Shown one piece after another: positions 1 to 15,149 of a stretch of 51,501 nucleotides of DNA. A program made the position numbers and the translations under genes. The notes beneath the pieces were generated by a model. The model saw only the letters and a list, made by a program, of their open reading frames with translations, was not told the origin of the DNA and did not search any database. This DNA is from a virus: the IMG/VR virus record IMGVR_UViG_3300042519_002678, positions 1-51,501 of that record, one strand, 5' to 3'. How positions within the stretch are numbered: position 1 is the first letter of the stretch; every line of letters begins with the position of its first letter.

Positions 1-3000
1 TCAGGAAGTAGTGGTTCATCAGGTACATCGGGAGCTAACGGAAGTTCAGGTACAAGTGGCTCGTCAGGAAGTAGTGGTAGTTCAGGGTCATCTGGTTCTG
101 CGGGTACATCGGGAGCTAACGGAAGTTCAGGAACATCTGGTTCAAGTGGTAGTGCTGGAAGCTCAGGAAGTAGTGGTAGTTCTGGTTCCGTTGGTACGTC
201 AGGTTCTAGCGGTTCATCAGGAAGTTCTGGTACGAGTGGAAGTTCAGGAAGTAGTGGCTCATCAGGTTCTTCAGGAAGTACAGGTTCAAGAGGAACATCA
301 GGTACTTCGGGAACATCAGGTACATCAGGTGCCAATGGAAGTAGTGGAACATCAGGTAGTAGTGGTTCTAGCGGAAGTGCTGGAAGCTCAGGAAGTTCAG
401 GTTCAACTGGAACATCTGGTTCTTCAGGAAGTAGTGGTTCTAGTGGTAGTTCAGGAAGTACAGGTTCTTCTGGTTCAAGTGGAACATCAGGTTCGTCAGG
501 AAGTTCCGGCTCATCAGGATCAAGTGGGTCTGCTGGAACTTCAGGGGCTAACGGAAGTTCAGGAACAAGTGGTTCTTCAGGTTCTAGTGGTAGTGCTGGA
601 AGCTCAGGAAGTTCTGGTACATCGGGTGCTAACGGAAGTTCAGGAACATCAGGTAGTAGTGGTTCTAGTGGAAGTGCTGGTTCATCAGGAAGTTCAGGTT
701 CAACTGGTACATCTGGTTCTTCAGGAAGTAGTGGTTCTAGTGGAAGCGCTGGTTCATCAGGAAGTACAGGTTCAAGAGGAACATCAGGTACATCAGGAAC
801 ATCAGGAAGTGCTGGTTCATCAGGTTCAAGTGGAAGTTCAGGAACATCAGGAGCTAACGGAAGTTCGGGAACATCCGGTACAAGTGGAAGTTCAGGTTCT
901 TCGGGAAGTAGTGGTAGTTCTGGCTCTGCTGGTACATCAGGTGCTAATGGAAGTAGCGGAACATCAGGTAGCTCTGGTTCATCTGGCTCAAGTGGAAGTA
1001 GTGGTAGTTCAGGTTCATCAGGAACAAGTGGGGCTAATGGAAGTTCAGGTACAAGTGGTAGTTCTGGAACATCGGGCTCAAGTGGGTCGTCAGGTAGTTC
1101 AGGCTCAAGTGGAAGTTCTGGAATTAACGGTTCATCAGGAACTTCAGGTTCAAGTGGTAGCACAGGGTCTACTGGTAGTAGTGGTTCTTCAGGTAGTTCA
1201 GGAACATCAGGAAGTAGTGGGACATCGGGAAGTTCTGGTTCAAGCGGAAGTTCTGGTTCATCAGGAAGCACAGGTTCAAGAGGAACAAGTGGTTCTTCAG
1301 GAACATCAGGAAGTGCTGGTTCATCAGGTTCAAGTGGTAGTACTGGAAGCTCGGGTACTTCTGGTTCATCAGGAAGTTCTGGCTCAAGCGGATTAACAGG
1401 TTCTTCAGGAACAAGCGGTTCGAGTGGTTCTTCAGGAAGTACAGGTTCTAGCGGAAGTGCTGGAAGCTCAGGAAGTTCAGGTACATCAGGTGCTAATGGA
1501 AGCAGTGGAACCTCTGGGTCAAGTGGTTCATCAGGAAGTGCTGGCTCATCAGGAAGTTCAGGTTCAACTGGTTCTTCGGGAAGTAGTGGTTCTAGTGGAA
1601 GCGCTGGTTCATCAGGAAGTACAGGTTCAAGAGGTACTAGTGGTACATCAGGGACATCAGGGACATCAGGAAGTGCTGGTTCATCAGGTACATCAGGTGC
1701 TAATGGAAGCAGTGGAACCTCTGGGTCAAGTGGTTCATCAGGAAGTGCTGGCTCATCAGGTTCAAGTGGAAGTTCAGGAACATCGGGAAGCAGTGGTTCT
1801 TCAGGTTTTAGTGGAAGTTCAGGAACATCAGGAACAAGTGGAAGTTCAGGTTCATCAGGAAGTTCTGGAATTACTGGTTCATCGGGAACTTCAGGTTCTA
1901 GCGGAAGTGCTGGCAGCTCAGGAAGTGGAGGTTCATCGGGAACATCAGGTTCTTCGGGAACAAGTGGAAGTGCTGGTTCATCAGGAAGTTCTGGAATTAC
2001 TGGTTCATCAGGTACTTCTGGTTCATCGGGTAGTTCAGGTTCAGCAGGAAGTTCAGGAACATCAGGTTCATCAGGAAGTGCAGGTTCAAGTGGGATATCA
2101 GGAAATGACTCTTCTAACTCAGGTAGATGGGGTTACGCATCAGGTGGAGGGGTTCCTGGTTCGGGAAGATTTAGCGCAAGTAGTTCGACACTTTCATCTG
2201 TAATTGGTTTTGCAGTTAATGACCTTGATATTAATTCTACCGATTACGATGAATGGTGGTTAACAGCTGAGGGGTTAGTATCTGGAGGAAATGGGATATA
2301 CTTACAAGTAACTCAAGTAGGCAGTAATAATATAATAGGTCTTTATTCAGTTTCCGCGATAAATGATAATACCACATATTGGTCAATAACAGTTAAATTC
2401 ATAGCTGGGAGTGGTTCTATGACCAATGCCGAAAATTATACAATATCTTGGGTTTACAATGGTGCTGATGGTCCTTCTGGTTCAAGTGGAACATCAGGTT
2501 CAAGCGGAAGTTCTGGAAGTTCAGGCTCTAGTGGTATTGCTGGTAGTTCGGGAACATCTGGTTCTTCAGGTTCAAGCGGAAGTTCTGGAAGTTCAGGTTC
2601 AAGTGGTATTGCTGGTAGTTCGGGAACATCTGGTTCTTCAGGAAGTAGTGGTTCTACAGGTTCAAGAGGAACTAGCGGTTCTTCAGGTTCAAGTGGAAGC
2701 TCAGGTTCAAGCGGTTCTACAGGTTCAAGAGGAACTAGCGGTTCTTCAGGTTCAAGTGGAACTAGCGGTTCTTCAGGTTCAAGTGGAAGCTCAGGTTCAA
2801 GCGGTTCTACAGGTTCAAGAGGAACTAGTGGGACATCTGGAACATCAGGTTCATCTGGAACATCATCAACGGTTTATGTGGGTAATGCTAATGGTGCCGG
2901 TATTACTAATGGTGCTAGAGGTTCTATTTATTTAGGAGGAACCCCCGTTGCCACGGTTGCGGTTACCGCAGGTGATTACGGAGGTGGCGCAACTGATTTT

Positions 3001-3300
3001 ATGCCAGGATACCCAATGCCGGCAGGAACTGCAAGTAAAATGAGAGTTATTACAAGAAGTGCTAATCCTGCTCTAAATAGTTTAGAGGTCTATGTTGCTA
3101 ATGCTACTACATCAACATTAGGTGCTAAAGTTACAATAGCCGCTGGGTCAGCCGCAGGAGTTTACACTACAGATGACGGAACAACAGTTACGTACTCAGT
3201 TGGTGATAGATTATATTGTATTGCTAAAAATCCTAATGTGGGGGGAGGAGCGACTTCCGCACAAATAACTACAGTATCATTTAATTTTACACCTAGCTAA
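1..3300 (+). CDS. collagen-like tail/surface fibre protein, 5'-truncated
   Basis: Frame 1 is open from the first base to TAA at 3298-3300, giving at least 1,099 residues; the true start lies left of the window. Residues 1-700 are nearly uninterrupted Gly-X-Y triplets, mostly GSS, GTS, GSA, GAN and GSTGSR. Residues 701-824 form a globular island with several Trp and Tyr. Residues 825-956 are a second collagen-like stretch, and the last ~140 residues are a Gly/Ala/Thr-rich C-terminal domain, probably a trimerisation or receptor-binding tip. Proline is almost absent from the triplets, unusual for a collagen helix, while Ser and Thr dominate. Such repeats are known in fibres of tailed phages; the fibre assignment is inferred from architecture. 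The downstream operon of glycan enzymes suggests that the Ser/Thr side chains may be glycosylated. The next gene starts on the last base of this one. Confidence 0.85.
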   Translation, partial: SGSSGSSGTSGANGSSGTSGSSGSSGSSGSSGSAGTSGANGSSGTSGSSGSAGSSGSSGSSGSVGTSGSSGSSGSSGTSGSSGSSGSSGSSGSTGSRGTSGTSGTSGTSGANGSSGTSGSSGSSGSAGSSGSSGSTGTSGSSGSSGSSGSSGSTGSSGSSGTSGSSGSSGSSGSSGSAGTSGANGSSGTSGSSGSSGSAGSSGSSGTSGANGSSGTSGSSGSSGSAGSSGSSGSTGTSGSSGSSGSSGSAGSSGSTGSRGTSGTSGTSGSAGSSGSSGSSGTSGANGSSGTSGTSGSSGSSGSSGSSGSAGTSGANGSSGTSGSSGSSGSSGSSGSSGSSGTSGANGSSGTSGSSGTSGSSGSSGSSGSSGSSGINGSSGTSGSSGSTGSTGSSGSSGSSGTSGSSGTSGSSGSSGSSGSSGSTGSRGTSGSSGTSGSAGSSGSSGSTGSSGTSGSSGSSGSSGLTGSSGTSGSSGSSGSTGSSGSAGSSGSSGTSGANGSSGTSGSSGSSGSAGSSGSSGSTGSSGSSGSSGSAGSSGSTGSRGTSGTSGTSGTSGSAGSSGTSGANGSSGTSGSSGSSGSAGSSGSSGSSGTSGSSGSSGFSGSSGTSGTSGSSGSSGSSGITGSSGTSGSSGSAGSSGSGGSSGTSGSSGTSGSAGSSGSSGITGSSGTSGSSGSSGSAGSSGTSGSSGSAGSSGISGNDSSNSGRWGYASGGGVPGSGRFSASSSTLSSVIGFAVNDLDINSTDYDEWWLTAEGLVSGGNGIYLQVTQVGSNNIIGLYSVSAINDNTTYWSITVKFIAGSGSMTNAENYTISWVYNGADGPSGSSGTSGSSGSSGSSGSSGIAGSSGTSGSSGSSGSSGSSGSSGIAGSSGTSGSSGSSGSTGSRGTSGSSGSSGSSGSSGSTGSRGTSGSSGSSGTSGSSGSSGSSGSSGSTGSRGTSGTSGTSGSSGTSSTVYVGNANGAGITNGARGSIYLGGTPVATVAVTAGDYGGGATDFMPGYPMPAGTASKMRVITRSANPALNSLEVYVANATTSTLGAKVTIAAGSAAGVYTTDDGTTVTYSVGDRLYCIAKNPNVGGGATSAQITTVSFNFTPS
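2497..2640 (+). repeat. 72-bp tandem repeat in fibre gene
   Basis: Two adjacent 72-bp copies (2497-2568 and 2569-2640) differ at about two positions. The unit encodes 24 residues (eight Gly-X-Y triplets) including GIAGSSGTSG, so gain or loss of a unit keeps the reading frame and changes shaft length. Confidence 0.85.
2650..2832 (+). repeat. in-frame repeat cassette (GSTGSRGTSG) in fibre gene
   Basis: Copies of a cassette that begins ggttctacaggttcaagagg start at 2650, 2713 and 2803, spaced 63 and 90 bp, both multiples of three (and of nine). The same cassette occurs in diverged form earlier in the gene, for example near 265, 765 and 1270. The pattern fits expansion and recombination between in-frame modules. 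Confidence 0.75.
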
Positions 3301-3545
3301 TGGAATACACATACAAACAAATAGAAAATGGCGATTGGCAATTACTTGTTATTGTAAATGAAATACCTATTGTGTTCATTCTATCTGAAGACCTTATAGG
3401 TACTGAAGATACACCTCCTAGGGGTTTACCTGAACATATACAAATGATACAAGATTTTAAAGATGTTTCTAAACTAGAATATTTTATTCAACTTTTAATA
3501 GATAACCCTGGTACAGCATTTTCTATATATAATAATTTTGAATGA
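3300..3545 (+). CDS. hypothetical 81-aa protein downstream of fibre
   Basis: The ATG overlaps the fibre stop codon (TAATG), indicating translational coupling. The product is small and acidic, with a hydrophobic beta-like stretch (LLVIVNEIPIVFILSEDL) and a helical C-terminal half. I do not recognise a family. Small genes directly after phage fibre genes are often fibre-assembly chaperones, and that is a position-based guess only. It ends with TGA; in the same frame immediately downstream is a decayed coding remnant. Confidence 0.6.
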   Translation: MEYTYKQIENGDWQLLVIVNEIPIVFILSEDLIGTEDTPPRGLPEHIQMIQDFKDVSKLEYFIQLLIDNPGTAFSIYNNFE

Positions 3546-3569
3546 TTCTGAAGTACTATAAAACTATAA

Positions 3570-3965: not shown

Positions 3966-4014
3966 CAAACGAAACAAAGATACCTCTTAATTGTATAATA
4001 AGGAAAGGTACTTC

Positions 4015-6777
4015 GTGAAGAAATTATTGATAATAACCCCCCACCTATCGACTGGGGGATTACCGCAAGTTACGACAAACAAAATCCAACTTCTAAAGGA
4101 TGATTACATCATTAAATGTATAGAATACGGATGTTATTCATGGGATTTTGTTGTTCAGAAGAACCGTATCAAGAATTTGATCGGTGAGGAAAATCTTATT
4201 ACATTATGGGATGATAAGAATGTTTTGATTAATGTTATTGACGAATTCCAACCTGATATTATATCTATGGAGGAATTCCCTGAATTTTTCATGGATAGCA
4301 ATATCGCAAGACAAATCTATAAAAAGGATCGCCAGTATAAAATCTTTGAAACCACACACGACTCAAGTTTCAACCCAAGATCTAAAGTTTGGCTCCCCGA
4401 TAAGTTTATCTTCGTTAGTGTGTTTAATGCTATACAGTATTCAATGTTTGATGTACCTTATGATGTCATTGAATACCCTATTGAAAACAGGGAGAAGAGG
4501 AAGGACTTGTTCCAAGAAAAACTTGGGTTAGATAAGGGATGGAAACATGTTGTTAATGTTGGGTTATTCACTGAAAGGAAGAATCAAAAATACATTTTTG
4601 AAATTGCTCGTAAGTTAGAAAATGCTAAAATTAAATTTCATTTTATTGGTAATCAGGCGGATAACTTTAAGAGTTATTGGGAACCATTGATGAATAATAA
4701 ACCTGAAAACTGTATTGTTTGGGGCGAAAAAGATAATGTATCTGAATTTTTGGAAGCGTCTGATTTATTCATGTTTCCATCAAAAGGAGATAGAGATAAT
4801 AAGGAGTTAAACCCAATTGCTATTAAGGAAGCCATTGAATATGGTATTCCGATGATGATGTATAATCTTGATGTGTATTGTGGGAAATATGATAAACTAT
4901 CCCATGTTAAATTTTTGACTGGTGATATAGATAATGACGTAAATAATATGATTGATATTTTAAATGTGGGAGGTGTTGATTCACCAGGTGTTGATTCACC
5001 AGGTGTTGATTCACCATTCAGTTTTGTATTTAATAGTGATAATAATGAGATTATCATAAATTATACAGGTAATGAAAAGTTAAATCTTAGTGTTAGTGAT
5101 TTAAATAATATTATGAATATTTTAAATGTGGCAGATATCTATTCCCTATTCAATTTTGGATTCGATGGGGAAACTAATCAGGTTACCATAAATTATACAG
5201 GTAATGAAAAGTTAAACTTTAATGTTAGTATTAGGGACATGACATCAAGGGCTCCTATGTACTGGTTTAATCTATCCTTGGAGTACCCAATATTTTATTG
5301 GACAATACCTATACCAATTCACATTAAGAAATTTAAAGACAATCCTAATTTTAGAGGATTTTTGGTTGAGTTTTATGATGGGGAAACAAACGAATTGGTT
5401 TTTGACCACGACTTAATTGTTAATAGTAATTTCTTCCCAAAAATACCTGAGTTTAAATTCAAACCTTTGGATTGTAACTACATTAATTATTGTGAGTTCT
5501 TTGTTGATAGATGTTTTGATGATTTGAGATTAGAAAATCTTGACACAGTAATTGATATTGGGGCTAATGTTGGACTGTTTGCTAAGTATATGTATTCTGT
5601 GAACGCTAAGAAGGTTATCTTAGTTGAGGCTAATCCATACCTAAGAGAAAGTATTGAATACCATTTAGATACGGATTTAGAAAAATCAGTTATCTATATG
5701 AATCCAGTTTATAAAGAACACACTAAAATTGATTTTAGATTCTCAACGGAAAACTCAACAATTGGTTCAAATGTTTTTGATAGTAACGTGGGAGAATACG
5801 GACAACTTAGTAATTTAATCACTTGTGACACTATCACTATTGATGATATCTACAAGGATAACGACTATGGTAGAATATCATTATTTAAATGCGATATTGA
5901 AGGTGGTGAATATCCTATTTTTGAATCAATTACTGATGAACAGATTGGACTAGTTGATAGATTTATGGTTGAGTTCCACGAAAATACCGATGGACAGATT
6001 AATATTATACTTGAGAAATTAGATAGAAATAATTTTGAGTATGACATTATTGTTTATGAGATGGGTCGGAAAATTAGAGCAGATAGAAATTCTAAACATG
6101 GTGTTATCTTTGCTAAACCGAAAAATATTAAATTAAGGAAACCAGGTACTTTATCATCATCAGTTTATGATGTTACAAAAAGTTTTGAAGAACGATTGGC
6201 GGAATATACAGGAGCACCATATGCGGTTACTATTGATAACCAAAGTAACGCTCTGTTCTTGGCTTTGTATTATGAAAAGATTACAGGTAAAACAATTAAA
6301 ATACCAAGTAGAACATATCCTTCGGTTCCTTGTGAGGTTATCCACGCTGGGGGTAAGGTTGAATTTGAACCTGTTTATGGGTCAACATTAAAAGGACCTT
6401 ATCAGTTATCACCGACAAATGTATGGGATTCAGCATTAAGGTTTACTACCGACATGTATATACCAGGAACACATATGTGTTTATCATTTACAGGTCCATA
6501 CAAACACCTAAAACTTGGTAAGGGTGGAGCAATCTTAACTGACGACTTTGAGGCTTATAAGTGGTTTAAGAGAGCTAGATATTCAGGTAGAAATGAAGTT
6601 TCGTATCATGATGATAATTTTGATATGTTAGGATGGAATTTTTATATGATGCCTGAAATTGCGTCAAGAGGATTGTTACTTATGAACCAATTTTATAATA
6701 TGGACGGGACACCTAAACATAATGAGGATTTGGAATTACCATACCCTGACTTATCAAAATTTGATGTTTATAAATGA
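4015..6777 (+). CDS. three-domain glycan enzyme: GT4-like, FkbM methyltransferase, DegT-like aminotransferase domain
   Basis: I place the start at GTG 4015, 6 nt after AAGGAAAGG, rather than the in-frame TTG at 3991; the product is then 920 aa and begins with a typical GT4 strand (KKLLIITPHLSTGG). Residues 1-310 resemble a GT-B glycosyltransferase with the late Glu-containing donor-site region (LNPIAIKEAIEYGIPMM). Residues 321-333 are three VDSPG units encoded by 15-bp repeats. Two similar beta segments sharing INYTGNEKLN follow. Residues ~515-690 are an FkbM-type methyltransferase (IDIGANVGLF, FKCDIEGGEYPIFE). Residues ~707-920 resemble the N-terminal half of DegT/DnrJ sugar aminotransferases, with a candidate PLP lysine in SFTGPYKHLKLGKGG; the usual C-terminal half is missing. 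It overlaps the next gene by 4 nt and heads the glycan operon. Confidence 0.75.
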   Translation: MKKLLIITPHLSTGGLPQVTTNKIQLLKDDYIIKCIEYGCYSWDFVVQKNRIKNLIGEENLITLWDDKNVLINVIDEFQPDIISMEEFPEFFMDSNIARQIYKKDRQYKIFETTHDSSFNPRSKVWLPDKFIFVSVFNAIQYSMFDVPYDVIEYPIENREKRKDLFQEKLGLDKGWKHVVNVGLFTERKNQKYIFEIARKLENAKIKFHFIGNQADNFKSYWEPLMNNKPENCIVWGEKDNVSEFLEASDLFMFPSKGDRDNKELNPIAIKEAIEYGIPMMMYNLDVYCGKYDKLSHVKFLTGDIDNDVNNMIDILNVGGVDSPGVDSPGVDSPFSFVFNSDNNEIIINYTGNEKLNLSVSDLNNIMNILNVADIYSLFNFGFDGETNQVTINYTGNEKLNFNVSIRDMTSRAPMYWFNLSLEYPIFYWTIPIPIHIKKFKDNPNFRGFLVEFYDGETNELVFDHDLIVNSNFFPKIPEFKFKPLDCNYINYCEFFVDRCFDDLRLENLDTVIDIGANVGLFAKYMYSVNAKKVILVEANPYLRESIEYHLDTDLEKSVIYMNPVYKEHTKIDFRFSTENSTIGSNVFDSNVGEYGQLSNLITCDTITIDDIYKDNDYGRISLFKCDIEGGEYPIFESITDEQIGLVDRFMVEFHENTDGQINIILEKLDRNNFEYDIIVYEMGRKIRADRNSKHGVIFAKPKNIKLRKPGTLSSSVYDVTKSFEERLAEYTGAPYAVTIDNQSNALFLALYYEKITGKTIKIPSRTYPSVPCEVIHAGGKVEFEPVYGSTLKGPYQLSPTNVWDSALRFTTDMYIPGTHMCLSFTGPYKHLKLGKGGAILTDDFEAYKWFKRARYSGRNEVSYHDDNFDMLGWNFYMMPEIASRGLLLMNQFYNMDGTPKHNEDLELPYPDLSKFDVYK

Positions 6778-7400
6778 TAGTTGGATTCAATGAATATAAA
6801 CACAAGTATCAATTTAATGTTACAGGTGTAATCCATGTTGGGGCTCACGTTGGTCAAGAATATGATGAATATGTTGAAGCATTTGGTTTAATACCTACAT
6901 ATTGGTTTGAACCAATACCGCATGTTTATAAAGAGCTATCAAAAAATTTAGAGGGTAAACCTAACACGTTTTGTTATAATGTTGCGTTAGGTGAAAAAAT
7001 CGGAGTTCATAAAATGTATCTTGATGATGGCAACGGACAACAAAGTTCATCATTGTTAAAACCAAAAGAACACCAAAATTTTTATCCCCATATCAAATTT
7101 AGTGAAGAAAACACTATTAATATTACCTTAAATACATTAGATTTTTATGGTATAGATAATTGTAATTTTTTAGTTTTGGATACTCAGGGGTATGAGTTAA
7201 ATGCTCTTAAGGGTTCAATTAATACCTTAAAGAATATTGATTATATATTCACAGAATTTAATGTTATTGAAATGTATGATGGCTGTCCATCAATTGAACA
7301 ACTTGATGAATTTTTACAACCTTTTGGGTTTTACAGACAAGAAACGTGGGATGTTGATGGAGTATGGGGTGATGCATTTTACTTAAAAAAATATGATTAA
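6774..7400 (+). CDS. FkbM family methyltransferase
   Basis: A 208-aa protein of the Methyltransf_21 (FkbM) type. The SAM-binding motif I is VIHVGAHVGQEYDEY at about residues 19-33, an acidic strand end follows at WFEPIPHVY, and the family's signature VLDTQGYELNALKG lies near residues 133-146. FkbM enzymes O-methylate hydroxyls of sugars or polyketides using S-adenosylmethionine. Its neighbours suggest methylation of a sugar being built or transferred by this operon. It begins with ATGA overlap to the upstream fusion gene, which itself contains a second FkbM domain, and overlaps the downstream gene by 8 nt. The family call is firm; the substrate is unknown. Confidence 0.85.
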   Translation: MIVGFNEYKHKYQFNVTGVIHVGAHVGQEYDEYVEAFGLIPTYWFEPIPHVYKELSKNLEGKPNTFCYNVALGEKIGVHKMYLDDGNGQQSSSLLKPKEHQNFYPHIKFSEENTINITLNTLDFYGIDNCNFLVLDTQGYELNALKGSINTLKNIDYIFTEFNVIEMYDGCPSIEQLDEFLQPFGFYRQETWDVDGVWGDAFYLKKYD

Positions 7401-7980
7401 AAAAGCTTTTATAGGTAATGGTGGACATTTGAGAGAGGTAATCGCTCATACGAGATATGATGTTACTAGATTTGTTGAAGACGAATACTTCAACGGGGAA
7501 CATAATACATTACCGTTATCGCAATTCGATCCAAAAGAGTATTCTATTATGATTGCAATTGCTGACAGTCAGGTTAGAGCAAGAATTCAAAAATCATTGC
7601 CCGAAGACACCAGATATTTTTCATTCATCGATCCATCGGCAATTCTTTTGGATAGAAATATTGTAATCGGTGAAGGTTCATTTATTGGTGCAAATTGTGT
7701 AATAACTACTAATGTTAGTATTGGTAATCATTCAATTTTAAATAGAAATGTTAATATCGGACATGATTCGGTAATAGGTGATTTTTTTAGTGCTATGGCG
7801 GGGTCCGTAGTGTCAGGGAACGTTTCAATTGGCAATAATTGTTATATGGGTAACAATTCATCAATCCGTGAAAAAACAACTATTTGTGATGATGTGGTAA
7901 TTGGGATGAATGGAAGTGTTGTTAAGAATATCGATAAACCTGGAACTTATGTTGGAGTTCCTGTTAATAAAATTAAATAA
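7393..7980 (+). CDS. NeuD/PglD-like sugar O/N-acyltransferase (hexapeptide repeat)
   Basis: A 195-aa protein with a short Rossmann-like N-terminus (KKAFIGNGGHLREVIAH) followed, from about residue 80, by a left-handed beta-helix of hexapeptide repeats such as IVIGEG-SFIGAN-CVITTN-VSIGNH and ending GTYVGVPVNKIK. This is the layout of the NeuD/PglD/PerB acetyltransferases, which transfer an acetyl group from acetyl-CoA to nucleotide-linked amino sugars or sialic acids. The conserved His is visible in NIGHDSVIG. An acetyltransferase that works on amino sugars would pair logically with the DegT-like domain upstream. Its stop codon overlaps the next start (TAATG). Confidence 0.85.
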   Translation: MIKKAFIGNGGHLREVIAHTRYDVTRFVEDEYFNGEHNTLPLSQFDPKEYSIMIAIADSQVRARIQKSLPEDTRYFSFIDPSAILLDRNIVIGEGSFIGANCVITTNVSIGNHSILNRNVNIGHDSVIGDFFSAMAGSVVSGNVSIGNNCYMGNNSSIREKTTICDDVVIGMNGSVVKNIDKPGTYVGVPVNKIK

Positions 7981-9716
7981 TGGAAAAATTACTTTCGGTT
8001 ATAGTATCGGCATATAATTTTGAAAAATACCTTGAAGAGTGTATAGATTCAATTTACAACCAAAAAATTATCTACGGATATGAGGTAATTGTTAGAGATG
8101 ATTGTTCAAAAGATAATACTAAAGATGTTTTAATTAAACTAAAAGAAAAATACACCGATTTAAGAGTATTAAATGGTGATGTTAATTTGGGAGCGTTAGA
8201 AAATATAAGAACTTTATTAAATGCTTGTACGACAAAATATATCGCATATATTGATGGTGATGATTATTTTGACAATTATACAATTTTGAATGAAGAGGTT
8301 GAATTTTTAGAGAATAGCCCAAATTATAGTATGGTATGTACCGGAACTAGATATTTGTATCCTAACGGGGCAAGAGTACCAGTAGTAACTGAGTTATTTA
8401 TTAGCTCATTTCTTGACGATGTTACAACGGATGACTTACTTACAATCAATCACGCTTCATTTGCGAGAGTGTTTAGAAACATACCAAATTTAATAAAAGA
8501 TTACTTCAAAAATCTACCCTATGTTGATTGGCCACTTAACTATGAAATTAGTAAACATGGTTTAATTAAATGTATTCATAAGTGTGGTGGAATTTATAGA
8601 ATATCTAATGATGGTATGTTCTCAAATGTGTCTGAAAAGGAAAAAAACAAAAAAAATTCAATAGTTATTAATGAACTTAAAAGACAACATCTTAAAAATG
8701 ATTTCAAAACAATAACTATAGTTGATTGTTTTATTCATAATGAAAACGTTTTAGGTAAATTGGAGTTATGTATAAATAACTTAAAAAAATATAATCATAC
8801 AATACTTTTGGTATCTAATACAATTGTGCCTGAACATATAATAAAAAATGTTGATTATCATCTATATAATTCTAATAATATTCTTTTTGAGGGTGAGTAT
8901 ACTGATTCAGAGCCAGTTGTATTTTGGAAAAAAGTCAATGGATTAACAATTTACGAAGTTATTAATACAATACAAAAACATGGATTACCTGTTATGGTTA
9001 ATCTATTTAATTCATTGGACTTATGTAAATCACTTGGATTTACTCACTTCCAAAGAATCGAAGTTGATGATTTATATACTGACGAAGGTTATGAACATAT
9101 GAGAAGTGTTCCTTTGATTTGTTCTGAGAAAAATAAAAAGGGTGTGTTCTATTTTAATGAAGGTAAAGATGTATCATTTCACTATTTTTATTGCGAGATA
9201 GAGTATTTCCAACAGATAATAAATAGAGTTAGTTGTGAAGAAGATTATAAAAATTATTTATTAACTCACGGATATGGTACTGATTTCATAAATGTTGAAA
9301 AATATCTATACGATAACATAAACAGGAATGATCCCGGTTTATTAATAAGAAAGGATGGTGAGGAAGAAATGAACTCTGATTTTTACGGAACATTATGGAA
9401 TACAGAAACTACAGGTAGTAACGTATCGTCTAAATTTAGAGGATGTTCAAGTAAACTTTATAAGATATTAGGACAAGAGCCTATAATGTTATTATCTTAT
9501 AATTATAATAATTTTAGGTCCGAGAGAAAAATAATTGTAAATTACGTGGATAATACTTCTGGAGTGTTTTATCACGGTTTAGATAATTACGGACATTGGT
9601 CATTTAATATTTTTGAAAATGAAATTGAAAAAATATTAGTATACGATAGTCAAACTGACGAATTTTTATATGAAATAATAAACGAAAACATTGTTGATTA
9701 TATCGTTTTTTTATGA
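7980..9716 (+). CDS. family 2 glycosyltransferase with long C-terminal domain
   Basis: A 578-aa protein. Residues 1-~235 are a GT-A glycosyltransferase of family 2: LLSVIVSAYNFEKYLEECI at the N-terminus, IVRDDCSKDNT at the nucleotide-binding turn and the metal-binding DGDD at residues 92-95. Residues ~245-578 are a separate domain that opens with a new beta strand (FKTITIVDCFIHNENVLGKL) and looks like a second GT-A-type or accessory fold, but I cannot name it. The enzyme presumably transfers a sugar from a nucleotide-sugar donor in the host cytoplasm. It overlaps the previous gene by one base and the next by four (ATGA). No transmembrane segment is seen. Confidence 0.8.
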   Translation: MEKLLSVIVSAYNFEKYLEECIDSIYNQKIIYGYEVIVRDDCSKDNTKDVLIKLKEKYTDLRVLNGDVNLGALENIRTLLNACTTKYIAYIDGDDYFDNYTILNEEVEFLENSPNYSMVCTGTRYLYPNGARVPVVTELFISSFLDDVTTDDLLTINHASFARVFRNIPNLIKDYFKNLPYVDWPLNYEISKHGLIKCIHKCGGIYRISNDGMFSNVSEKEKNKKNSIVINELKRQHLKNDFKTITIVDCFIHNENVLGKLELCINNLKKYNHTILLVSNTIVPEHIIKNVDYHLYNSNNILFEGEYTDSEPVVFWKKVNGLTIYEVINTIQKHGLPVMVNLFNSLDLCKSLGFTHFQRIEVDDLYTDEGYEHMRSVPLICSEKNKKGVFYFNEGKDVSFHYFYCEIEYFQQIINRVSCEEDYKNYLLTHGYGTDFINVEKYLYDNINRNDPGLLIRKDGEEEMNSDFYGTLWNTETTGSNVSSKFRGCSSKLYKILGQEPIMLLSYNYNNFRSERKIIVNYVDNTSGVFYHGLDNYGHWSFNIFENEIEKILVYDSQTDEFLYEIINENIVDYIVFL

Positions 9717-10480
9717 TCGGATTAACTATAACCACCTGTAAAAGAATTGATTTGTTTGAAAAGACAATATTAACATTTGTAAGTGAATGTGAAGATTGTA
9801 ATTCAATTGATGTCATAATTCATTACGATGATTCATCATCTTTGGATGATAGAAATAAAATGTTTACATTATTGAATACATTATTTACTGACACTTTAAT
9901 AATATCTAAAAGATTTAATCCAAATTCGTTTAACACTAATCGAAGACATTTAGAGATAATGAAAAAATGGAAAGAAGACATAAAATTTTTTAATGTGGAT
10001 TATGTTTTTCATTTAGAAGATGACTGGTTATTTGAAAACAAATTTAGTATCCAAGAGGGTGTTGAATTATTAAAGAATAATGATGAAATTGCTATGGTTG
10101 GATTTTCATGGAAAAGAAAGATATTCCCGAAAGAATTATTTGAACCAAGGATTATTGGTAATTTTTGGGAGTGGTATTATTCTGATAAACATTATCTGAA
10201 TGAACCTTTGTTTAATGATACGGTTGAAGAAACTTTACACGCAGATAAAGGAATGTGGATTAAATATATTAATTGGCCTTACTTCGGATTTAGACCGGCA
10301 ATACATGATGTTAATAAATTAAATCAAATTGAAAATTTTAACGATAATATGGATTCTTTTGAGTTGGAATTTGCAATAAGGTTTGCAAAAAAATTCAAAT
10401 CGTTTTTACATTTGGAAAAAATTTGTTATCATATTGGTGATGAAAATTCATCATATAATTTAAATAATTCTTTAAGATAA
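9713..10480 (+). CDS. GT-A glycosyltransferase
   Basis: A 255-aa protein with a GT-A N-terminus (IGLTITTCKRIDLFEKTI), a probable nucleotide contact at IIHYDDSSS and a metal-binding acidic motif FHLEDDWLF near residues 99-107. A later aromatic-rich stretch (GNFWEWYYSDKHY, NWPYFGFRP) probably shapes the acceptor site. Similar short GT-A proteins are frequent in phage and capsule glycan clusters. It is coupled to both neighbours by 4-nt and 1-nt overlaps. Donor and acceptor are not predictable from sequence alone. Confidence 0.75.
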   Translation: MIGLTITTCKRIDLFEKTILTFVSECEDCNSIDVIIHYDDSSSLDDRNKMFTLLNTLFTDTLIISKRFNPNSFNTNRRHLEIMKKWKEDIKFFNVDYVFHLEDDWLFENKFSIQEGVELLKNNDEIAMVGFSWKRKIFPKELFEPRIIGNFWEWYYSDKHYLNEPLFNDTVEETLHADKGMWIKYINWPYFGFRPAIHDVNKLNQIENFNDNMDSFELEFAIRFAKKFKSFLHLEKICYHIGDENSSYNLNNSLR

Positions 10481-11052
10481 TGGATTATAATTTTTTATGG
10501 GTACCTAAGACCACTTATCATAGGTCAGCACAAAGTCAGTTTGTTGTTGATGTTTTTCCTAAAATATTAAAAAATTTTGAATTGATAATTGAAATTGGAA
10601 CATTTACAGGAGCGTTCACTTTATGGTTGTCTGAAAATAACTCTGATAGTTGTAAAATAATCTCTTACGATATTAATCCTGATTATTGTGAAGTTAATAA
10701 TCTTAAAGATACCGAATTAAGAATTGGAGATTGTTTTGATATTGATGTTATGAAAGATATTCGTGATCTAATTAACAATTCGGGTAGAACTCTTTTTTTA
10801 TGTGACGGAGGGGATAAGGAACTTGAGTTTAGATTATATTCAAAGTACTTGAAAAAGGATGATGTTATAATGCTCCACGATTATTCACATAGTGATGAAG
10901 AGTATAATATTATTAAACAAAAAATAAACTGGCCAACAAATTCAGAATCACACTATAAGAATATTGAAAGATACTTACCTGAACTTAATTTAAGTACATA
11001 TATGTATGATGATTTTAAACAAGTTTTATGGGGTTCGTTTATAAAAAATTGA
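10480..11052 (+). CDS. class I SAM methyltransferase, CmcI-like
   Basis: A 190-aa protein with a Rossmann methyltransferase core: motif I IIEIGTFTGAFTLWL (residues ~36-50), an acidic second strand (IISYDINPDY) and a later strand LFLCDGGDKELEFRLYSKYL followed by DDVIMLHDYSH. This arrangement resembles the cephalosporin hydroxylase/CmcI and sugar O-methyltransferase group, where the DGGD and HDY acids help bind a metal. It is likely to methylate a sugar hydroxyl in the same pathway. It starts on the last base of the upstream stop codon. Confidence 0.7.
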   Translation: MDYNFLWVPKTTYHRSAQSQFVVDVFPKILKNFELIIEIGTFTGAFTLWLSENNSDSCKIISYDINPDYCEVNNLKDTELRIGDCFDIDVMKDIRDLINNSGRTLFLCDGGDKELEFRLYSKYLKKDDVIMLHDYSHSDEEYNIIKQKINWPTNSESHYKNIERYLPELNLSTYMYDDFKQVLWGSFIKN

Positions 11053-11053
11053 T

Positions 11054-11773
11054 ATGAATTATAAGATTAAATTAGTTCATTTACAGACAACACAGAATGA
11101 ACATAGAGAAAAACTATCACGAAAATCTATACAACAAGTAATACCTTACGGTATTGAATATGTTTTACATCAGAACGAGTTATATACTTCCTTACCTCCA
11201 GTTCATACAAGTGTTAGACCACATAATGTTAGAATCGGTAAGTATGAAGATGTTAATGACCCTGAATATGGGAACGCATTAACTCCAGCTCACTACGGAT
11301 GTTTTGAAGCTTTTAAAATTGGTATCCTATCAGAATTTGATAATGATTTAGATTTCTTAATTGTTTGTGAAGGTGATTGTATTATTGAAGTTCCAATAGA
11401 AGAGTTTATTGATAAAGTTAATCAGGTATGTGGTATAGTTAATCAGGAAGATATCTCTTACTTTTCATTTGGTGATACCAAAACTTTAGATTATGGTTGG
11501 CATCAATCTGACGTTGTTAGAGAAATACCGAACCAAGATTTATTGTTTATTACTAATAAAATAATTGGTTTACAGTGTATTATGTTTTCAAAAAAATCAC
11601 GTAAAACAATTATGAACCAGTTGAGAACACATAGATGGGATTGTGCTGACACATTTTTTAATATAATATGTGCGGAACAGAGATTAACTATGGGAGTTTT
11701 AAAGAAAAGAATAACAACCCAAGCGGATGGGGAATCATTCATAGATAAAGAATATAAAGTTTTTACAAAATAA
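11054..11773 (+). CDS. probable GT-A glycosyltransferase, GT25-like
   Basis: A 239-aa protein. The order of motifs resembles GT25 (LPS galactosyltransferase/collagen glycosyltransferase) proteins: an early strand IKLVHLQTT, the segment ALTPAHYGCFEAFKIGIL at residues ~75-92 (GT25 has LTxGExGCxxSH here), then the acidic FLIVCEGDCIIE at 101-112 in place of the usual LEDD. A late RTHRWDCADTFF stretch is consistent with the acceptor side. GT25 includes animal collagen glycosyltransferases, which is suggestive beside a collagen-like fibre, but similarity is weak and the canonical DxD is altered. It is separated from its neighbours by a single base on each side. Confidence 0.5.
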   Translation: MNYKIKLVHLQTTQNEHREKLSRKSIQQVIPYGIEYVLHQNELYTSLPPVHTSVRPHNVRIGKYEDVNDPEYGNALTPAHYGCFEAFKIGILSEFDNDLDFLIVCEGDCIIEVPIEEFIDKVNQVCGIVNQEDISYFSFGDTKTLDYGWHQSDVVREIPNQDLLFITNKIIGLQCIMFSKKSRKTIMNQLRTHRWDCADTFFNIICAEQRLTMGVLKKRITTQADGESFIDKEYKVFTK

Positions 11774-11774
11774 T

Positions 11775-12320
11775 ATGGCACACGAACAACAAAAGAATTT
11801 TTTTAAAAGAGTTAAAGATAAATATCCAAAATATTTTACAGATGTAAAAGTTTTAGATATTGGTTCTTTGGATATAAATGGTTCAATACGGGATTTATTT
11901 GATTATCCATTTTATTATGTTGGGTTAGATTTAGCTGAGGGTAAAAATGTTGATGTAATTTGTCCTGGACATTTATATGACTCAGGATTTGAATTTGATG
12001 TTGTTTCATCTGGAGAATGTTTTGAACATGATATGTATTATGCTAGAACAATACAGAATATGATTAGACTTCTTAAGTGTGGAGGTTTAATGGTTTTTAC
12101 TTGTGCGTCAACAGGTAGACATGAACATGGAACATTAAGAACTACACCTGATAATGCGCCTTTCCTAAGTAATATTAGTGAAAAGTGGGGAAATTATTAT
12201 AAAAATCTAACTGAAGATGATATAAGGTCAGTTATTGATGTTAATAATATCTTTAGTGATTTTGGATTTGAATATGAACCAGTGACTTGTGACTTATATT
12301 TTTGGGGGATAAAGAAATGA
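11775..12320 (+). CDS. SAM-dependent methyltransferase (Methyltransf_11-like)
   Basis: A 181-aa protein with a class I methyltransferase core: motif I VKVLDIGSLDINGSIR (residues ~24-39), a second strand ending YVGLDLAEGKNVDVI, motif IV-like EFDVVSSGECFEHDMYY and motif V-like RLLKCGGLMVFTCAS. The family has many substrates. The C-terminal part (LRTTPDNAPFLSN and the FGFEYEP strand) matches methyltransferases found in glycan loci. It is the third methyltransferase polypeptide in the operon and its stop overlaps the next start by 4 nt (ATGA at 12317). Confidence 0.75.
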   Translation: MAHEQQKNFFKRVKDKYPKYFTDVKVLDIGSLDINGSIRDLFDYPFYYVGLDLAEGKNVDVICPGHLYDSGFEFDVVSSGECFEHDMYYARTIQNMIRLLKCGGLMVFTCASTGRHEHGTLRTTPDNAPFLSNISEKWGNYYKNLTEDDIRSVIDVNNIFSDFGFEYEPVTCDLYFWGIKK

Positions 12321-13012
12321 TTAATGTTGATGTAATTTGTCTAACAAATACAACTTCTGATGATTTGTATTGGATGACTCGTCGTACATTAACTACCATA
12401 CATGATTCGGAAACAGATTATAAATTTCATATTCATTTAATTGAAACAAATTTTGAAAGTGGGTATAATTATTCTGATATTGTTGAAAATTATGTAAAAC
12501 CAAATGAAAAATTTAATTACAATAGATTTTTAAATCACTCATATCCATATGTAAAACATGATTGGGTATTAATTACAAATAATGATGTAAGATACGAAAG
12601 AGGATGGTTTTCAAAAATAATTGAGGTTTACACTAAAAGACCTGATGTTGAATCTTTTTCACCTAAATGTCCAATTTTATATTCTAAATATTTTTACGAT
12701 GATTTCTTAGGTGGTGATTTAGATTTTCATGAAAGTGTTGGTACTAGTGTTCATTTAATGGGATGGTCATTAGTTATGAAAAAAAGAGTTTTTGATATTG
12801 TTTATCCTTGGGACGAAAATTTTTATATGTATTACCAAGATAATGATTACGCTGAAATTCTATTAAAGAATAATATTAAACATGGTTTGGTTAGGGACTC
12901 AATTGCAACTCACTTAGAATCACAAACTATAAAACATAAATTTAATTCAAATACAATTGATAATCTTAAAGTAAAAAATTATTTTTATCAAAAATGGGGA
13001 AAGGAGATTTAA
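12317..13012 (+). CDS. family 2 glycosyltransferase
   Basis: The ATG at 12317 forms the ATGA overlap typical of this operon and follows a GGGGG stretch, so I prefer it to the in-frame ATG at 12302; the product is 231 aa. A GT-A N-terminus (INVDVICLTNTTSDDLYW) leads to WVLITNNDVRYERGW around residues 83-97, where NND replaces the DxD, as in many family 2 rhamnosyl- and other transferases. MGWSLVMKKRVFDIVYPWDE and YYQDNDYAEIL are typical of the acceptor-side GT2 pattern ending in the catalytic acidic residue. One base separates it from the next gene. Confidence 0.8.
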   Translation: MINVDVICLTNTTSDDLYWMTRRTLTTIHDSETDYKFHIHLIETNFESGYNYSDIVENYVKPNEKFNYNRFLNHSYPYVKHDWVLITNNDVRYERGWFSKIIEVYTKRPDVESFSPKCPILYSKYFYDDFLGGDLDFHESVGTSVHLMGWSLVMKKRVFDIVYPWDENFYMYYQDNDYAEILLKNNIKHGLVRDSIATHLESQTIKHKFNSNTIDNLKVKNYFYQKWGKEI

Positions 13013-13013
13013 T

Positions 13014-15149
13014 ATGAAAATTACACAAGTAACACCTGGAATTATTACAATACCACCTAACGGATGGGGAGCGGTCGAAAAAGTAATATGGGAATATTAC
13101 AACAATATTAAAGAGTTAGGTTACCAATGTGACATAAAATATCTTAATGAGGTAGATACTAATAGTAGTGATATTATTCATATTCACATGGCTAATTTAG
13201 CAATTGATGCTGCTAACAAAGGAATACCTTACATTTTTTCATTACATGACCACCACGTTGTTTATTATGGTAAGGACTCATCTAACTACCAACAGAATTT
13301 AGAGGCGATTAAAAGGTCTGTGGTATCTTTTACACATGCTGAGTTTTTAGTTGATTACTTTGACGAAACTGATAAGTTGTTCTACCTATCACATGGTGTT
13401 AATACAGAGTTCTTTAAGAATGACAAACCGAAAAGAAGTGAACATAAACTATTGTGTTTAGCAAACAATGGTATTGGAGGAGATTCGACGTATGATAGGA
13501 AGGGATTTAGATATGCTATTGAGGCGGCAATCAAATTAGATTTACCCATTACAGTTGCCGGTCCTGAAAATAATAGAATATTCTTTGAACATCATAATGA
13601 CTTATTAAATTATGATAAGTTAACTTTAATGTTTTCAAATCCAAACGAAGAACAAATATTAGAATTATATAAAAGTCATTCAATATTCTTACATCCTTCT
13701 ATGTTAGAAGCCGGTCACCCTAATCTAACATTATTAGAAGCAGTATCTTGTAATATGCCAGTTGTTGGTACTTACTTAGGTTCACAAACGATAGAAGGAA
13801 TGGTTGTGGTTGAAAGAGATGTAAATCAAATAGTTAGTGGTGTTAAACAAATCATTGATAATTACGATTTATATTTAAGTAACACTGAATTAGATAGACA
13901 AAATTATGATTGGAGTATTATCACCAAGAGAATGGTTAGAATTTATGAAGACCTGATTAACAGTAGAAAGAATTTGAATAGTCTTGAGACTAAACAAAGA
14001 TTTGATAAAGTATTTGAGAATACTGAAATAAAACCAAAAGAGATGGTTGAAAAAATTGAAGTAATTAATCATTATATCAACGGAGCGTTAGTTGAAATTA
14101 AGGGCAATAGTGATAAACGATATTTAGTTGAGTTTTGGAATCAGGACGGTAACTGTGAATATCGTGAGGAGATTGGTTGTAATATGTGGGTCAGATTAAG
14201 TAAGAAGTATTTTGATGAATATACTTTAAAAATTTATTCTGAAGGTAATTTAATCAGTGAAAAGAAATACAACGCTGAAAACAAACGAGTTTATATTGCA
14301 TTAGATTCAAAGTCTTTGGGTGATACATTTGCTTGGGTACCTTACGCTGAGGAATTCAGAAAGAAACACAACTGTAAGGTTATTTGTTCAACATTCTTTA
14401 ACGATTTATTTGTAAAACAATATCCTGAGATACAATTTGTTTCACCTGGTAGTACGGTTGATAACCTATACGCAATGTATGAGATAGGTTGGTTCTACGA
14501 TGGTGATAATGTTAAAACGGATAGACACCCAAGCGATTTTAAACTAGGCCCACTACAAAAAACTGCGACAGACATTTTAGGCTTGGAATATAAAGAGGTA
14601 AAACCTTTAATCAAAAACCCTAACAAGTTAAAGAAAAAACGAGTTGGATTAGGTATCCACTCAACGGCTCAATCCAAGTATTGGAATAATCCAAAGGGAT
14701 GGCAAGACATTACTGATTATTTGATTTCACTTGGATATGAGGTGATTATCTACTCAAAAGAGGAAGATGGTTATATGGGTAATTACTATCCTAAAGGTGC
14801 TAAACAAAACCCTCCTGACTCAATCTACAAACTTATTGAAGAATTATCAACATGTGAATTCTTTATAGGTATATCAAGTGGTATTTCATGGGTGACCTGG
14901 GCGTTAGACATACCGACAGTATTGATTTCAGGATTTACTGAAGAGTTTAATGAACCTTATGAGAATGTGTATAAGGTTAGTGCTCCTGAAAATACTTGTA
15001 GAGGATGTGCTAATAAGTTTAGATTAGACCCAGGTGATTGGAACTGGTGTCCGATAAATAAGGGGAATGAAAAGATGTTTGAATGTTCTAAAAAGATAAC
15101 ATCTGAAATGGTGACAAATGTAATTAAAAGAGAGGGATTAGTAAAATGA
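13014..15149 (+). CDS. GT4 glycosyltransferase fused to TibC/BAHT-type protein O-heptosyltransferase
   Basis: A 711-aa bifunctional protein. Residues 1-320 are a GT4 glycosyltransferase (N-terminal KITQVTPGIITIPPNGWGA, donor-site region LEAGHPNLTLLEAVSCNMPVV). Residues ~345-711 match the bacterial autotransporter heptosyltransferase family (TibC/Aah): an N-terminal beta domain (YINGALVEI, GCNMWVRLSKKYF), then SLGDTFAWVPYAEEF (434-448), HSTAQSKYWNNPKGW (549-563), FFIGISSGISWVTWAL (616-631), LISGF and DPGDWNWCP. Four cysteines, C662, C665, C679 and C691, match the family's metal-binding cysteine cluster. Known members transfer heptose from ADP-heptose to serines of autotransporter repeat proteins. 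Here the nearest Ser-rich repeat protein is the phage fibre at 1-3300. The BAHT call is strong; the substrate is inferred. It overlaps the next gene by 4 nt. Confidence 0.88.
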   Translation: MKITQVTPGIITIPPNGWGAVEKVIWEYYNNIKELGYQCDIKYLNEVDTNSSDIIHIHMANLAIDAANKGIPYIFSLHDHHVVYYGKDSSNYQQNLEAIKRSVVSFTHAEFLVDYFDETDKLFYLSHGVNTEFFKNDKPKRSEHKLLCLANNGIGGDSTYDRKGFRYAIEAAIKLDLPITVAGPENNRIFFEHHNDLLNYDKLTLMFSNPNEEQILELYKSHSIFLHPSMLEAGHPNLTLLEAVSCNMPVVGTYLGSQTIEGMVVVERDVNQIVSGVKQIIDNYDLYLSNTELDRQNYDWSIITKRMVRIYEDLINSRKNLNSLETKQRFDKVFENTEIKPKEMVEKIEVINHYINGALVEIKGNSDKRYLVEFWNQDGNCEYREEIGCNMWVRLSKKYFDEYTLKIYSEGNLISEKKYNAENKRVYIALDSKSLGDTFAWVPYAEEFRKKHNCKVICSTFFNDLFVKQYPEIQFVSPGSTVDNLYAMYEIGWFYDGDNVKTDRHPSDFKLGPLQKTATDILGLEYKEVKPLIKNPNKLKKKRVGLGIHSTAQSKYWNNPKGWQDITDYLISLGYEVIIYSKEEDGYMGNYYPKGAKQNPPDSIYKLIEELSTCEFFIGISSGISWVTWALDIPTVLISGFTEEFNEPYENVYKVSAPENTCRGCANKFRLDPGDWNWCPINKGNEKMFECSKKITSEMVTNVIKREGLVK

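Follow-up and report, generated by a model that had tools for sequence, protein, structure and literature searches.

Why should a phage carry a run of sugar-transferring and sugar-modifying enzymes beside a gene for a collagen-like fibre with hardly any proline? The locus analysed here, referred to as the window, is a stretch of 51,501 nucleotides (positions 1 to 51,501 of IMG/VR virus record IMGVR_UViG_3300042519_002678), and the answer that we consider probable is that cassettes of this kind, which are exchangeable, O-glycosylate the phage's own Gly-Ser/Thr-Ser collagen-like fibre shaft, a prediction assembled below from gene content, active-site residues and distribution across phages.

The fibre gene and the cassette beside it

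The features of the locus are as follows.

1..3300, + strand: Ser/Thr-type collagen-like fibre gene (Gly-X-Y runs, PF01391, PHROG tail-fibre families); 5' end outside the window
3300..3545, + strand: 81-aa ORF 3' of the fibre gene, without family match
3991..6777, + strand: 928-aa GT4, FkbM methyltransferase and short DegT-like protein (domain matches); first cassette gene
6774..7400, + strand: FkbM methyltransferase (PF05050, 62.4 bits)
7393..7980, + strand: NeuD/PglD-like sugar acetyltransferase (TIGR03570, 147.5 bits, under the cut-off of 160.8)
7980..9716, + strand: GT2 glycosyltransferase with C-terminal extension (PF00535, 86.2 bits)
9713..10480, + strand: probable GT-A glycosyltransferase, without family match (low-confidence model, pLDDT 47.7, mostly GT-A matches)
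10480..11052, + strand: methyltransferase-like (PF01728, 24.8 bits, cut-off 24.1)
11054..11773, + strand: probable GT-A glycosyltransferase, earlier "GT25-like" (low-confidence model only)
11775..12320, + strand: SAM-dependent methyltransferase (phrog_32762, 189.6 bits)
12302..13012, + strand: glycosyltransferase (phrog_22332, 41.5 bits)
13014..15149, + strand: 711-aa GT4 and predicted BAHT-type protein O-glycosyltransferase (TIGR04414, TibC 4rap); last cassette gene
15146..15415, + strand: 89-aa ORF with homologues at this slot in related phages, including those without detected BAHT
15474..17981, + strand: head-closure Hc2-like protein (phrog_679, 36.6 bits), right border of the slot
18779..20623, + strand: terminase large subunit (PHROG match), used for placing the phage

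Beginning at base 1, frame 1 runs without a stop until 3300, giving 1,099 fibre residues within the window, and in record G046, which is nearly the same sequence, the reading frame runs on for at least 5.8 kb further upstream. Gly-X-Y runs occupy approximately 4-2109 and 2470-2865, separated by a globular insert and followed by a globular C-terminus; they form 234 uninterrupted triplets and then a second block of 44. GSS accounts for 128 and GTS for 52 of the 234 triplets in the main block, X being mostly Ser or Thr and Y mostly Ser, and the proline-rich X and Y positions typical of collagen are absent from the fibre (9 prolines in 1,099 residues). The Pfam Collagen family PF01391 matches the last 365 residues at 71 bits (cut-off 27.2), and the shaft may adopt a triple helix, a polyglycine-II arrangement or another fold. 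A six-triplet DNA pattern used to search for the repeat hit up to 477 places per record; since the reversed pattern, run as a control, gave 0 in every record searched, the repeat is not a chance feature.

The preliminary description had placed a GSS/GTS-dominated fibre gene about 700 bp before an eleven-gene unit. The gap, measured from the fibre stop to the first cassette gene, is 690 bases (3301-3990), and the unit is indeed co-linear; however, 3991-15149 holds ten ORFs, the eleventh (15146-15415) overlapping the tenth by four bases. The cassette is AT-rich (GC 26-34%, compared with 34-41% downstream), and promoter and terminator scans gave chance-level results only. A DegT-like domain is present in the 3991 product; at about 200 aa it is short, which makes this assignment weaker than had been stated.

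The suggested likeness of the 11054 product to GT25, the collagen glycosyltransferase family, is not supported by sequence. We rejected it on that basis, with zero Pfam matches at E<=10, and a PDB sequence search returned three matches (E 0.44-1.9) that we take as chance. Fold support is loose: a low-confidence model (pLDDT 53.9) resembles GT-A enzymes in general, among them LH3 (Z 9.5), COLGALT1 (Z 8.5) and a PBCV-1 capsid glycosyltransferase, with scores outside GT25 reaching Z 11.2. From such models, the 11054 and 9713 products are both probable GT-A glycosyltransferases.

The BAHT-like domain and its sugar

Residues 369-706 of the 711-residue 13014 product match TIGR04414 positions 28-373 of 374 at 265.7 bits, above the curated cut-off of 200, in agreement with the full TibC/BAHT-type domain previously noted in one cassette member. 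The domain, at approximately 14118-15131, is fused behind a GT4 domain, and the product matches the TibC structure 4rap at 183 bits. Of the nine key residues of TibC named in PMC4358343, eight are kept, including the catalytic base (Asp-110, here Asp-437), three of the four sugar contacts (Thr-226, Lys-230, Trp-305) and the iron-finger cysteines 339, 342, 358 and 370 (Cys-662, Cys-665, Cys-679 and Cys-691); the sole change is Arg-286 to Leu (Leu-607). Equivalents of Asp-110, Thr-226, Lys-230 and Trp-305 are found in all 94 aligned phage BAHT domains, the window's included, as are the four cysteines, while the Arg-286 equivalent is Arg in 9 of the 94, eight of these being stand-alone domains of terminase relatives. 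Because Arg-286 is replaced by Leu-607, we call the 13014 domain a BAHT-like divergent branch with putative heptosyltransferase activity. A dodecameric ring and an ADP-heptose donor are further hallmarks of BAHT O-heptosyltransferases. According to the same source (PMC4358343), BAHT enzymes act on protein serine, the TibC peptide sites studied are serines with no threonines, and the BAHT gene often has its autotransporter partner gene after it; no such partner is found among the nearest non-cassette neighbours of the 13014 gene (fibre, small ORFs, head-closure protein).

The loss of the sugar-binding Arg-286 means that heptose, the sugar originally proposed, is not assured. Of 32 BAHT records, 13 contain genes resembling GmhA or HldE-C, all of them below the curated cut-offs: GmhA-like matches in 6 (five scoring 180-188 bits and a partial one scoring 55) and HldE-C-like matches in 8. 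In the window itself the NCBIfam scan covered the ten cassette proteins. With no match over cut-off in these 32 records, and GmhA lying between RuvC-like and gp32-like genes in G086, G087 and G089 (neighbours read by eye), we did not adopt a phage-borne heptose pathway as part of this system. An argument based on acceptors preceding glycine was likewise dropped: in the TibC peptide given in PMC4358343, Ser-313 precedes Gly (NSGG), but Ser-322 precedes Ala (TSAA). Nor could the avoidance of Thr at Y (2.2% of 4,473 triplets, 14 loci) be tied to BAHT. Since most repeat fibres from records without BAHT share it (13 loci, three exceptions), the rarity of Thr at Y seems to be a property of the fibre type; Ser at Y is the rule in those fibres too.

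Co-occurrence and exchange

The co-occurrence of BAHT domains with Ser-rich fibres in related phages, which had been suggested as a check, is seen in the records searched. Among 38 BAHT clusters, all 20 with a record of at least 50 kb bear GSS-type repeats (16 by the strict pattern), compared with a single one of 20 neutral records, which itself has a BAHT domain. When records were drawn by the repeat alone, 19 of 30 had a BAHT domain and 11 did not. Across short stretches, BAHT was found in 9 of 107 with Ser/Thr-type runs, in 0 of 132 neutral ones (the first pattern yielded only 12, and a second was added) and in 0 of 99 with Pro-type runs; one record, G049, holds Pro-type runs together with BAHT and Ser/Thr-type runs. 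Repeats lie within 5 kb of BAHT in 16 of 38 clusters, in three orders (upstream on the same strand, downstream on the same strand, convergent). In LR756504, a phage of 636 kb, the BAHT domain stands without a repeat within 20 kb, and 2 of 9 loci with bacterial or MAG relatives of BAHT have short repeat runs. Both BAHT and a repeat fibre are present in the named phage Mel-JY01, for which no paper appeared among the best 5 of 7,019 literature matches.

A conserved operon lacking the Ser-rich fibre, named beforehand as counter-evidence, did not emerge: GSS repeats are present in 7 of the 9 records of at least 50 kb in the window's own BAHT cluster (a count that includes G046), and the other two, G042 and G045, end inside the cassette on the upstream side, where G039 has its fibre. 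Whole or in part, the cassette recurs at 81-100% protein identity in other phages, of up to 242 kb, whose terminases are distant or unmatched; these carry GSS fibres, with the cassette located away from the terminase and fibre. Across 22 BAHT-bearing records, the terminase has no match in 6, and in the others ranges from 28-50% (often partial) up to 100% (G046). In terminase relatives the same fibre-side slot is filled by other, distant BAHTs, and BAHTs of three types occupy it across these relatives, according to a quick tree with long branches for TibC and for the second BAHT of G086. The cassette is exchanged between phages.

Within terminase relatives the association was counted in two ways, and because clusters share ancestry all of the following p-values overstate independence: by the strict repeat over whole records it is 10 of 19 with BAHT versus 2 of 9 without (p = 0.22, not significant), and among fetched loci that show the fibre upstream of the slot, runs of at least 10 Gly-X-Y triplets occur in 8 of 8 with BAHT versus 2 of 6 without (p = 0.015), or 8 of 9 versus 2 of 6 when G089 is included (p = 0.089). 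In two terminase relatives, G081 and G095, we found the repeat but no BAHT.

Probable self-glycosylation, its alternatives and its relatives

One rare type of enzyme turns up again and again in different phages that have such fibres, and we therefore regard glycosylation of the phage's own fibre as the most likely function. Co-occurrence, adjacency in three gene orders and absence from Pro-type collagen stretches argue for the proposed action on the fibre, the sugar being the uncertain part. Computation establishes which domains are present, that active-site residues are retained, that BAHT and repeat occur together and side by side, and that cassettes are exchanged; the substrate, sugar, timing, step order and benefit are inferred. 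The BAHT domain of the 13014 product would place the first sugar, heptose or a related one, from a nucleotide donor onto shaft serines, late in infection and ahead of chain trimerisation; the GT4, GT2 and GT-A enzymes would then lengthen the glycan, and capping would fall to the NeuD-like acetyltransferase and to the methyltransferases, those of the FkbM family included. The result would be a shaft covered by methylated, acylated glycan with an altered fibre surface, in which the glycan could take over from proline and hydroxyproline in stabilising and hydrating the fibre. The island encoding it is exchanged between phages. The benefits suggested earlier, namely triple-helix stabilisation, protection from proteases, masking and the binding of lectin-like receptors, are possible ones.

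The cassette might instead modify host LPS or capsule during infection and block superinfection. Gene clusters for LPS and capsule commonly include members of the NeuD, FkbM, GT2 and GT4 families, and in G002 and G039 fibre and cassette are apart. For the glycosyltransferase clusters found in large cyanophages, Iyer et al. 2021 propose a host-surface role (PMC7824862). Nevertheless, we hold such a role to be unlikely: the window's cassette sits between the fibre and the head-closure and terminase genes, BAHT lies beside Ser/Thr-type and never Pro-type runs in the stretches examined, and the known acceptor of BAHT is a protein serine (PMC4358343).

It is less probable still that the target is another virion or host protein and the place beside the fibre incidental. 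BAHT and repeat are sometimes apart, and mycobacteriophage virion glycosylation reportedly concerns other structural proteins, yet an association specific to the repeat, with adjacency in three gene orders, speaks against it. Finally, the two features might simply be common in some large-phage lineages and travel together without functional link; the non-independence of clusters and the non-significant comparison among terminase relatives would fit, but the terminases of the BAHT-bearing records span unmatched to identical, and cassettes and BAHT types swap across lineages while the repeat stays, which makes this very improbable.

Returning to self-glycosylation of the fibre, we tentatively suggest a further possibility, that of exchangeable fibre "glycotypes": non-orthologous BAHT-centred cassettes might move between distant large phages into a slot beside the Ser/Thr-type fibre, with O-glycosylation replacing proline and hydroxyproline, so making a nearly proline-free shaft of several hundred triplets workable, and letting the fibre surface vary.

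Mycobacteriophage virions are glycosylated by virus-encoded glycosyltransferases acting on structural proteins, with targets and enzyme families that differ from those of the window; chlorovirus PBCV-1 likewise uses its own glycosyltransferases on capsid proteins, with other targets and other families (PDB titles). TibC/Aah of E. coli, which work with the autotransporters TibA/AIDA-I (PMC4358343), share with the window's enzyme a homologous catalytic domain, the catalytic Asp, the iron-finger cysteines and a nearby gene for a Ser-containing repetitive surface protein; there, however, the partner is a beta-helical autotransporter, here a phage collagen-like fibre, and the window's enzyme, unlike TibC, is fused to GT4, has Leu for Arg-286 and is encoded in a cassette together with other glycosyltransferases, methyltransferases and acetyltransferases. 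In mimivirus, L230, a collagen hydroxylase/glucosyltransferase, is also a virus enzyme for the virus's own collagen-like protein, but its target is hydroxylysine (PMC4691112), whereas Ser/Thr are the plausible acceptors of the glycosylation predicted here and BAHT is of another family. BclA of Bacillus spores has a glycosylated prokaryotic collagen-like shaft, as predicted for ours; the bacterial collagens covered in the review PMC8968730 have Pro at 19-31% of X and Thr at 31.6-48.3% of Y, in contrast to Ser/Thr at X and Ser at Y in the window's fibre. The earlier statement that no phage system pairing BAHT with its own fibre had been described fits our literature search of open-licence PMC papers, among the matches listed.

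If true, self-glycosylation would extend BAHT-kind protein O-glycosylation from bacterial adhesins to phage virions, provide a phage counterpart to mimivirus collagen glycosylation, hint at how hundreds of collagen-like triplets with next to no proline could still make a working shaft, and imply a trade in fibre-modification islands among phages. The idea is directly testable with Mel-JY01, a named phage whose host is recorded, and through expression in E. coli.

The fibre gene and its transferase cassette

Bases 1-3300 hold the end of a fibre gene whose product matches the Pfam Collagen family and carries 234 + 44 Gly-X-Y triplets, in the main GSS, GTS, GSA or GST. In G046, a record nearly identical to the window (BAHT and terminase 100% identical, fibre overlap identical in 98 of 99 bases), the fibre frame is open across all 5,861 bases examined (L293 1-5861), with its start codon further upstream, and contains two additional Gly-X-Y runs, of 176 and 368 triplets, which flank a globular insert of roughly 145 aa. 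The upstream end of this frame has GES-containing repeats.

The preliminary description placed an eleven-gene co-linear unit about 700 bp after the fibre; the co-linearity stands and the gap to the fibre stop is 690 bases, but we count ten ORFs. The features are:

1-3300, end of the fibre gene
3991-15149, + strand, cassette of ten co-linear ORFs
3991-6777, + strand, cassette gene with a C-terminal DegT-like domain
13014-15149, + strand, cassette gene encoding GT4 + BAHT
15146-15415, small ORF of 89 aa

The cassette encodes GT4, FkbM, short DegT-like, second FkbM, NeuD-like acetyltransferase and GT2 domains, two further methyltransferases, a member of a phage glycosyltransferase family, two proteins without a family match, and the GT4 + BAHT protein. 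Structural models of the two family-less proteins are of low confidence (pLDDT 53.9 and 47.7); almost every match listed for them is a GT-A glycosyltransferase or a related nucleotidyltransferase. Measured in 1.5-kb windows, GC content drops from 46-49% in the fibre to 26-34% in the cassette and rises to 34-41% further downstream. The DegT-like domain (about 200 aa) is far shorter than the Pfam model, which spans 360 positions; since a separate 217-aa ORF in two loci (L067 and L017) is 94% identical to the 3991-6777 product over 216 residues, this short form may be conserved.

The BAHT domain and its sugar donor

The full TibC/BAHT-type domain proposed at the outset is borne out by a TIGR04414 score of 265.7 bits (curated cut-off 200) and by TibC (two entries) as the protein's sole PDB match at E<=0.01. 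For the key TibC residues we followed Yao et al. 2014 (PMC4358343): all 94 phage domains in the alignment, including that of the window, have Asp-110, Thr-226, Lys-230, Trp-305 and the four iron-finger cysteines. In TibC, alanine replacement at any one of four residues, Arg-286 among them, abolished activity or largely diminished it (PMC4358343). The window has Leu at this position; Arg is kept in 9 of the 94 domains, eight of which are stand-alone. Judged by sequence, the window protein is by descent a BAHT-like protein glycosyltransferase, and its donor may be other than that of TibC; the earlier O-heptosyltransferase assignment thus keeps its family and eight key residues, but the loss of Arg-286 leaves heptose less certain.

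Some related phages carry genes that hint at heptose. GmhA-like isomerases scoring 180-188 bits (cut-off 209) occur in records G078, G086, G087, G089 and G007, and those of G086, G087 and G089 score highest with model NF001628, D-sedoheptulose 7-phosphate isomerase (226-239 bits, cut-off 265). HldE-C-like nucleotidyltransferases are present in 8 of 32 BAHT records; three that were rescanned had TIGR02199 as top model at 80-96 bits, below its cut-off of 181.5. Neither gene is found in 19 of the 32, and there the donor would therefore come from the host. In related phages, the GmhA-like genes at L334 4687-5283, L336 2803-3414 and L337 5590-6180 are flanked by apparent RuvC-like and single-strand-binding-like genes.

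Co-occurrence of BAHT domains and Ser/Thr repeats

The best 80 of 233 BAHT relatives gave 79 loci in 38 clusters at 90% identity, each represented by its longest record. Ser/Thr Gly-X-Y repeats were present in all 20 clusters whose representative is at least 50 kb long (16 with the strict six-triplet DNA pattern anywhere in the record, four with only a looser run at the BAHT locus) and in 4 of the 18 with shorter representatives. Drawing instead on the repeat pattern alone, 80 of 120 stretches led to 30 distinct records of at least 50 kb, two of them (G007 and G040) shared with the enzyme-drawn set; 19 of these contained TIGR04414, 18 over cut-off, and some of the 11 without it may be fragments. 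A neutral set, comprising all 20 records of at least 50 kb listed for two arbitrary words, had one BAHT domain and one strict repeat, both in G115. The co-occurrence anticipated for related genomes is thus found, with the strict repeat in 16/20 BAHT clusters versus 1/20 neutral records (p = 2e-6) and BAHT in 19/30 repeat-drawn versus 1/20 neutral records (p = 3e-5), both values without correction for shared ancestry.

With an HMM made from phage BAHT domains and run on short stretches, BAHT was detected in 9 of 107 Ser/Thr-run stretches (one match weak and truncated) and in none of the 132 neutral or 99 Pro-run stretches (Ser/Thr versus Pro, p = 0.003), three stretches drawn by both patterns being entered in the Ser/Thr set. 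One Pro-drawn stretch does carry BAHT; it also holds a Ser/Thr run of length 23, and none of its Pro runs reaches 10. G049 combines both run types with BAHT. At the loci examined, BAHT and a repeat ORF are no more than 5 kb apart in 16 of 38 clusters; the repeat ORF is upstream on the same strand in six, downstream on the same strand in three, and downstream and convergent in seven.

Among relatives of the window's terminase (68-100% identity, best 80 of 190), all 28 records of at least 33 kb were counted, and the strict repeat occurs in 10 of 19 with BAHT versus 2 of 9 without (p = 0.22); several of the BAHT-bearing records lacking it end near BAHT, and a 219-triplet run in G078 escapes the strict pattern, but these cases do not alter the count. 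Among the loci examined that include the fibre upstream of the slot, 8/8 with BAHT (8/9 with G089, whose fibre may lie beyond the contig end) have Gly-X-Y runs of at least 10, scored with no Ser/Thr filter; G078 and G087 are near copies and G075 has only 12 triplets at a contig end. The corresponding figure for six of the nine records without BAHT is 2/6 (present in G081 and G095; absent in G080, G090, G092 and G096).

Four phage records carry BAHT. In Mel-JY01, an ORF some 1.7 kb upstream of the BAHT gene, and separated from it by an annotated structural gene, contains 168 triplets counted over runs of at least 6; LR756501 has a run of 19 triplets about 5 kb away, LR756503 shares its length and match coordinates, and LR756504 has no Gly-X-Y repeat within 20 kb of BAHT. 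In Mel-JY01 (Microcystis phage, PP395634, L313), GSS/GTS repeats occupy the + strand at 1-3049 and about 9446-9670. The deposited annotation places hypothetical genes on the - strand there and thus seems to have overlooked fibre genes.

Most likely, modification would begin with the BAHT domain priming serines in nascent fibre chains, after which the remaining transferases would build and cap the glycan. Stabilisation of the nearly proline-free shaft would be an attractive role by analogy, since glycosylated collagen-like proteins are known in mimivirus (PMC4691112) and Bacillus spores (PMC8968730). Large-phage glycosyltransferase clusters were interpreted earlier as host-surface modifiers (PMC7824862). 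Among the matches listed from open-licence PMC papers, no title or abstract start linked BAHT enzymes to the fibres of phages.

Exchange of cassettes and the phage lineage

The gene order common to the terminase relatives is fibre, transferases, small ORF, GT4, BAHT, Hc2 (head closure), terminase, sheath. At nine such loci examined, BAHT is stand-alone, about 400 aa long and 35-41% identical to that of the window. All nine stand-alone proteins belong to a single clade (SH-aLRT 100), the BAHT of the window falls with the L005 cluster (99), and a third, longer type (52-59% identity) occurs in G078, G079 and G087; from these sequences, the one slot is therefore occupied by at least three BAHT types.

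L005-cluster members carry the window's cassette in other phages, of up to 242 kb. Seven loci were examined: L002 is nearly the window, L016 and L014 have ten of ten cassette genes at 83-100% identity, and in L005, L018, L067 and L017 some are missing or replaced; in the latter six the cassette's neighbours are not Hc2/terminase. The G039 cassette begins at about 211.3 kb, downstream of repeats listed at 169.9-182.9 kb, and in G002 and G043 repeats are likewise well upstream of the cassette. The terminase matches of G002 and G039 reach 31-32% over part of the length only, and no terminase match was found in G040, G041, G043 or G044. Conservation of the operon without a Ser-rich fibre had been named beforehand as evidence against the pairing. 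In the window's cluster, 7 of 9 records of at least 50 kb (G046 counted) have the strict repeat; the other two, G042 and G045, break off within the cassette, on the side where it faces upstream. The window phage may have gained its cassette by replacing an older pair of GT4 and BAHT genes, as its low GC, its tree position and the shifted small ORF suggest.

The window is a virus record of 51,501 bases, and its gene content is of myovirus type, with terminase, sheath, two tail-tube genes, two portal genes, ligase and clamp loader. Its terminase is less than 60% identical to every one of 2,506 matching phage records, and the best named phages among the 25 matches listed, Tenacibaculum PTm1 and Sphingomonas PAU, reach about 33%; judged by this protein, the lineage is therefore distant from named phages. 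The tail-tube genes (24068-24622 and 24638-25213) are a tandem pair of one family (phrog_32623), also present in relatives L296, L302 and L307. The portal genes (37959-39533 and 39548-41191, both phrog_213) lie side by side, a duplication that is, to our knowledge, unusual in tailed phages.
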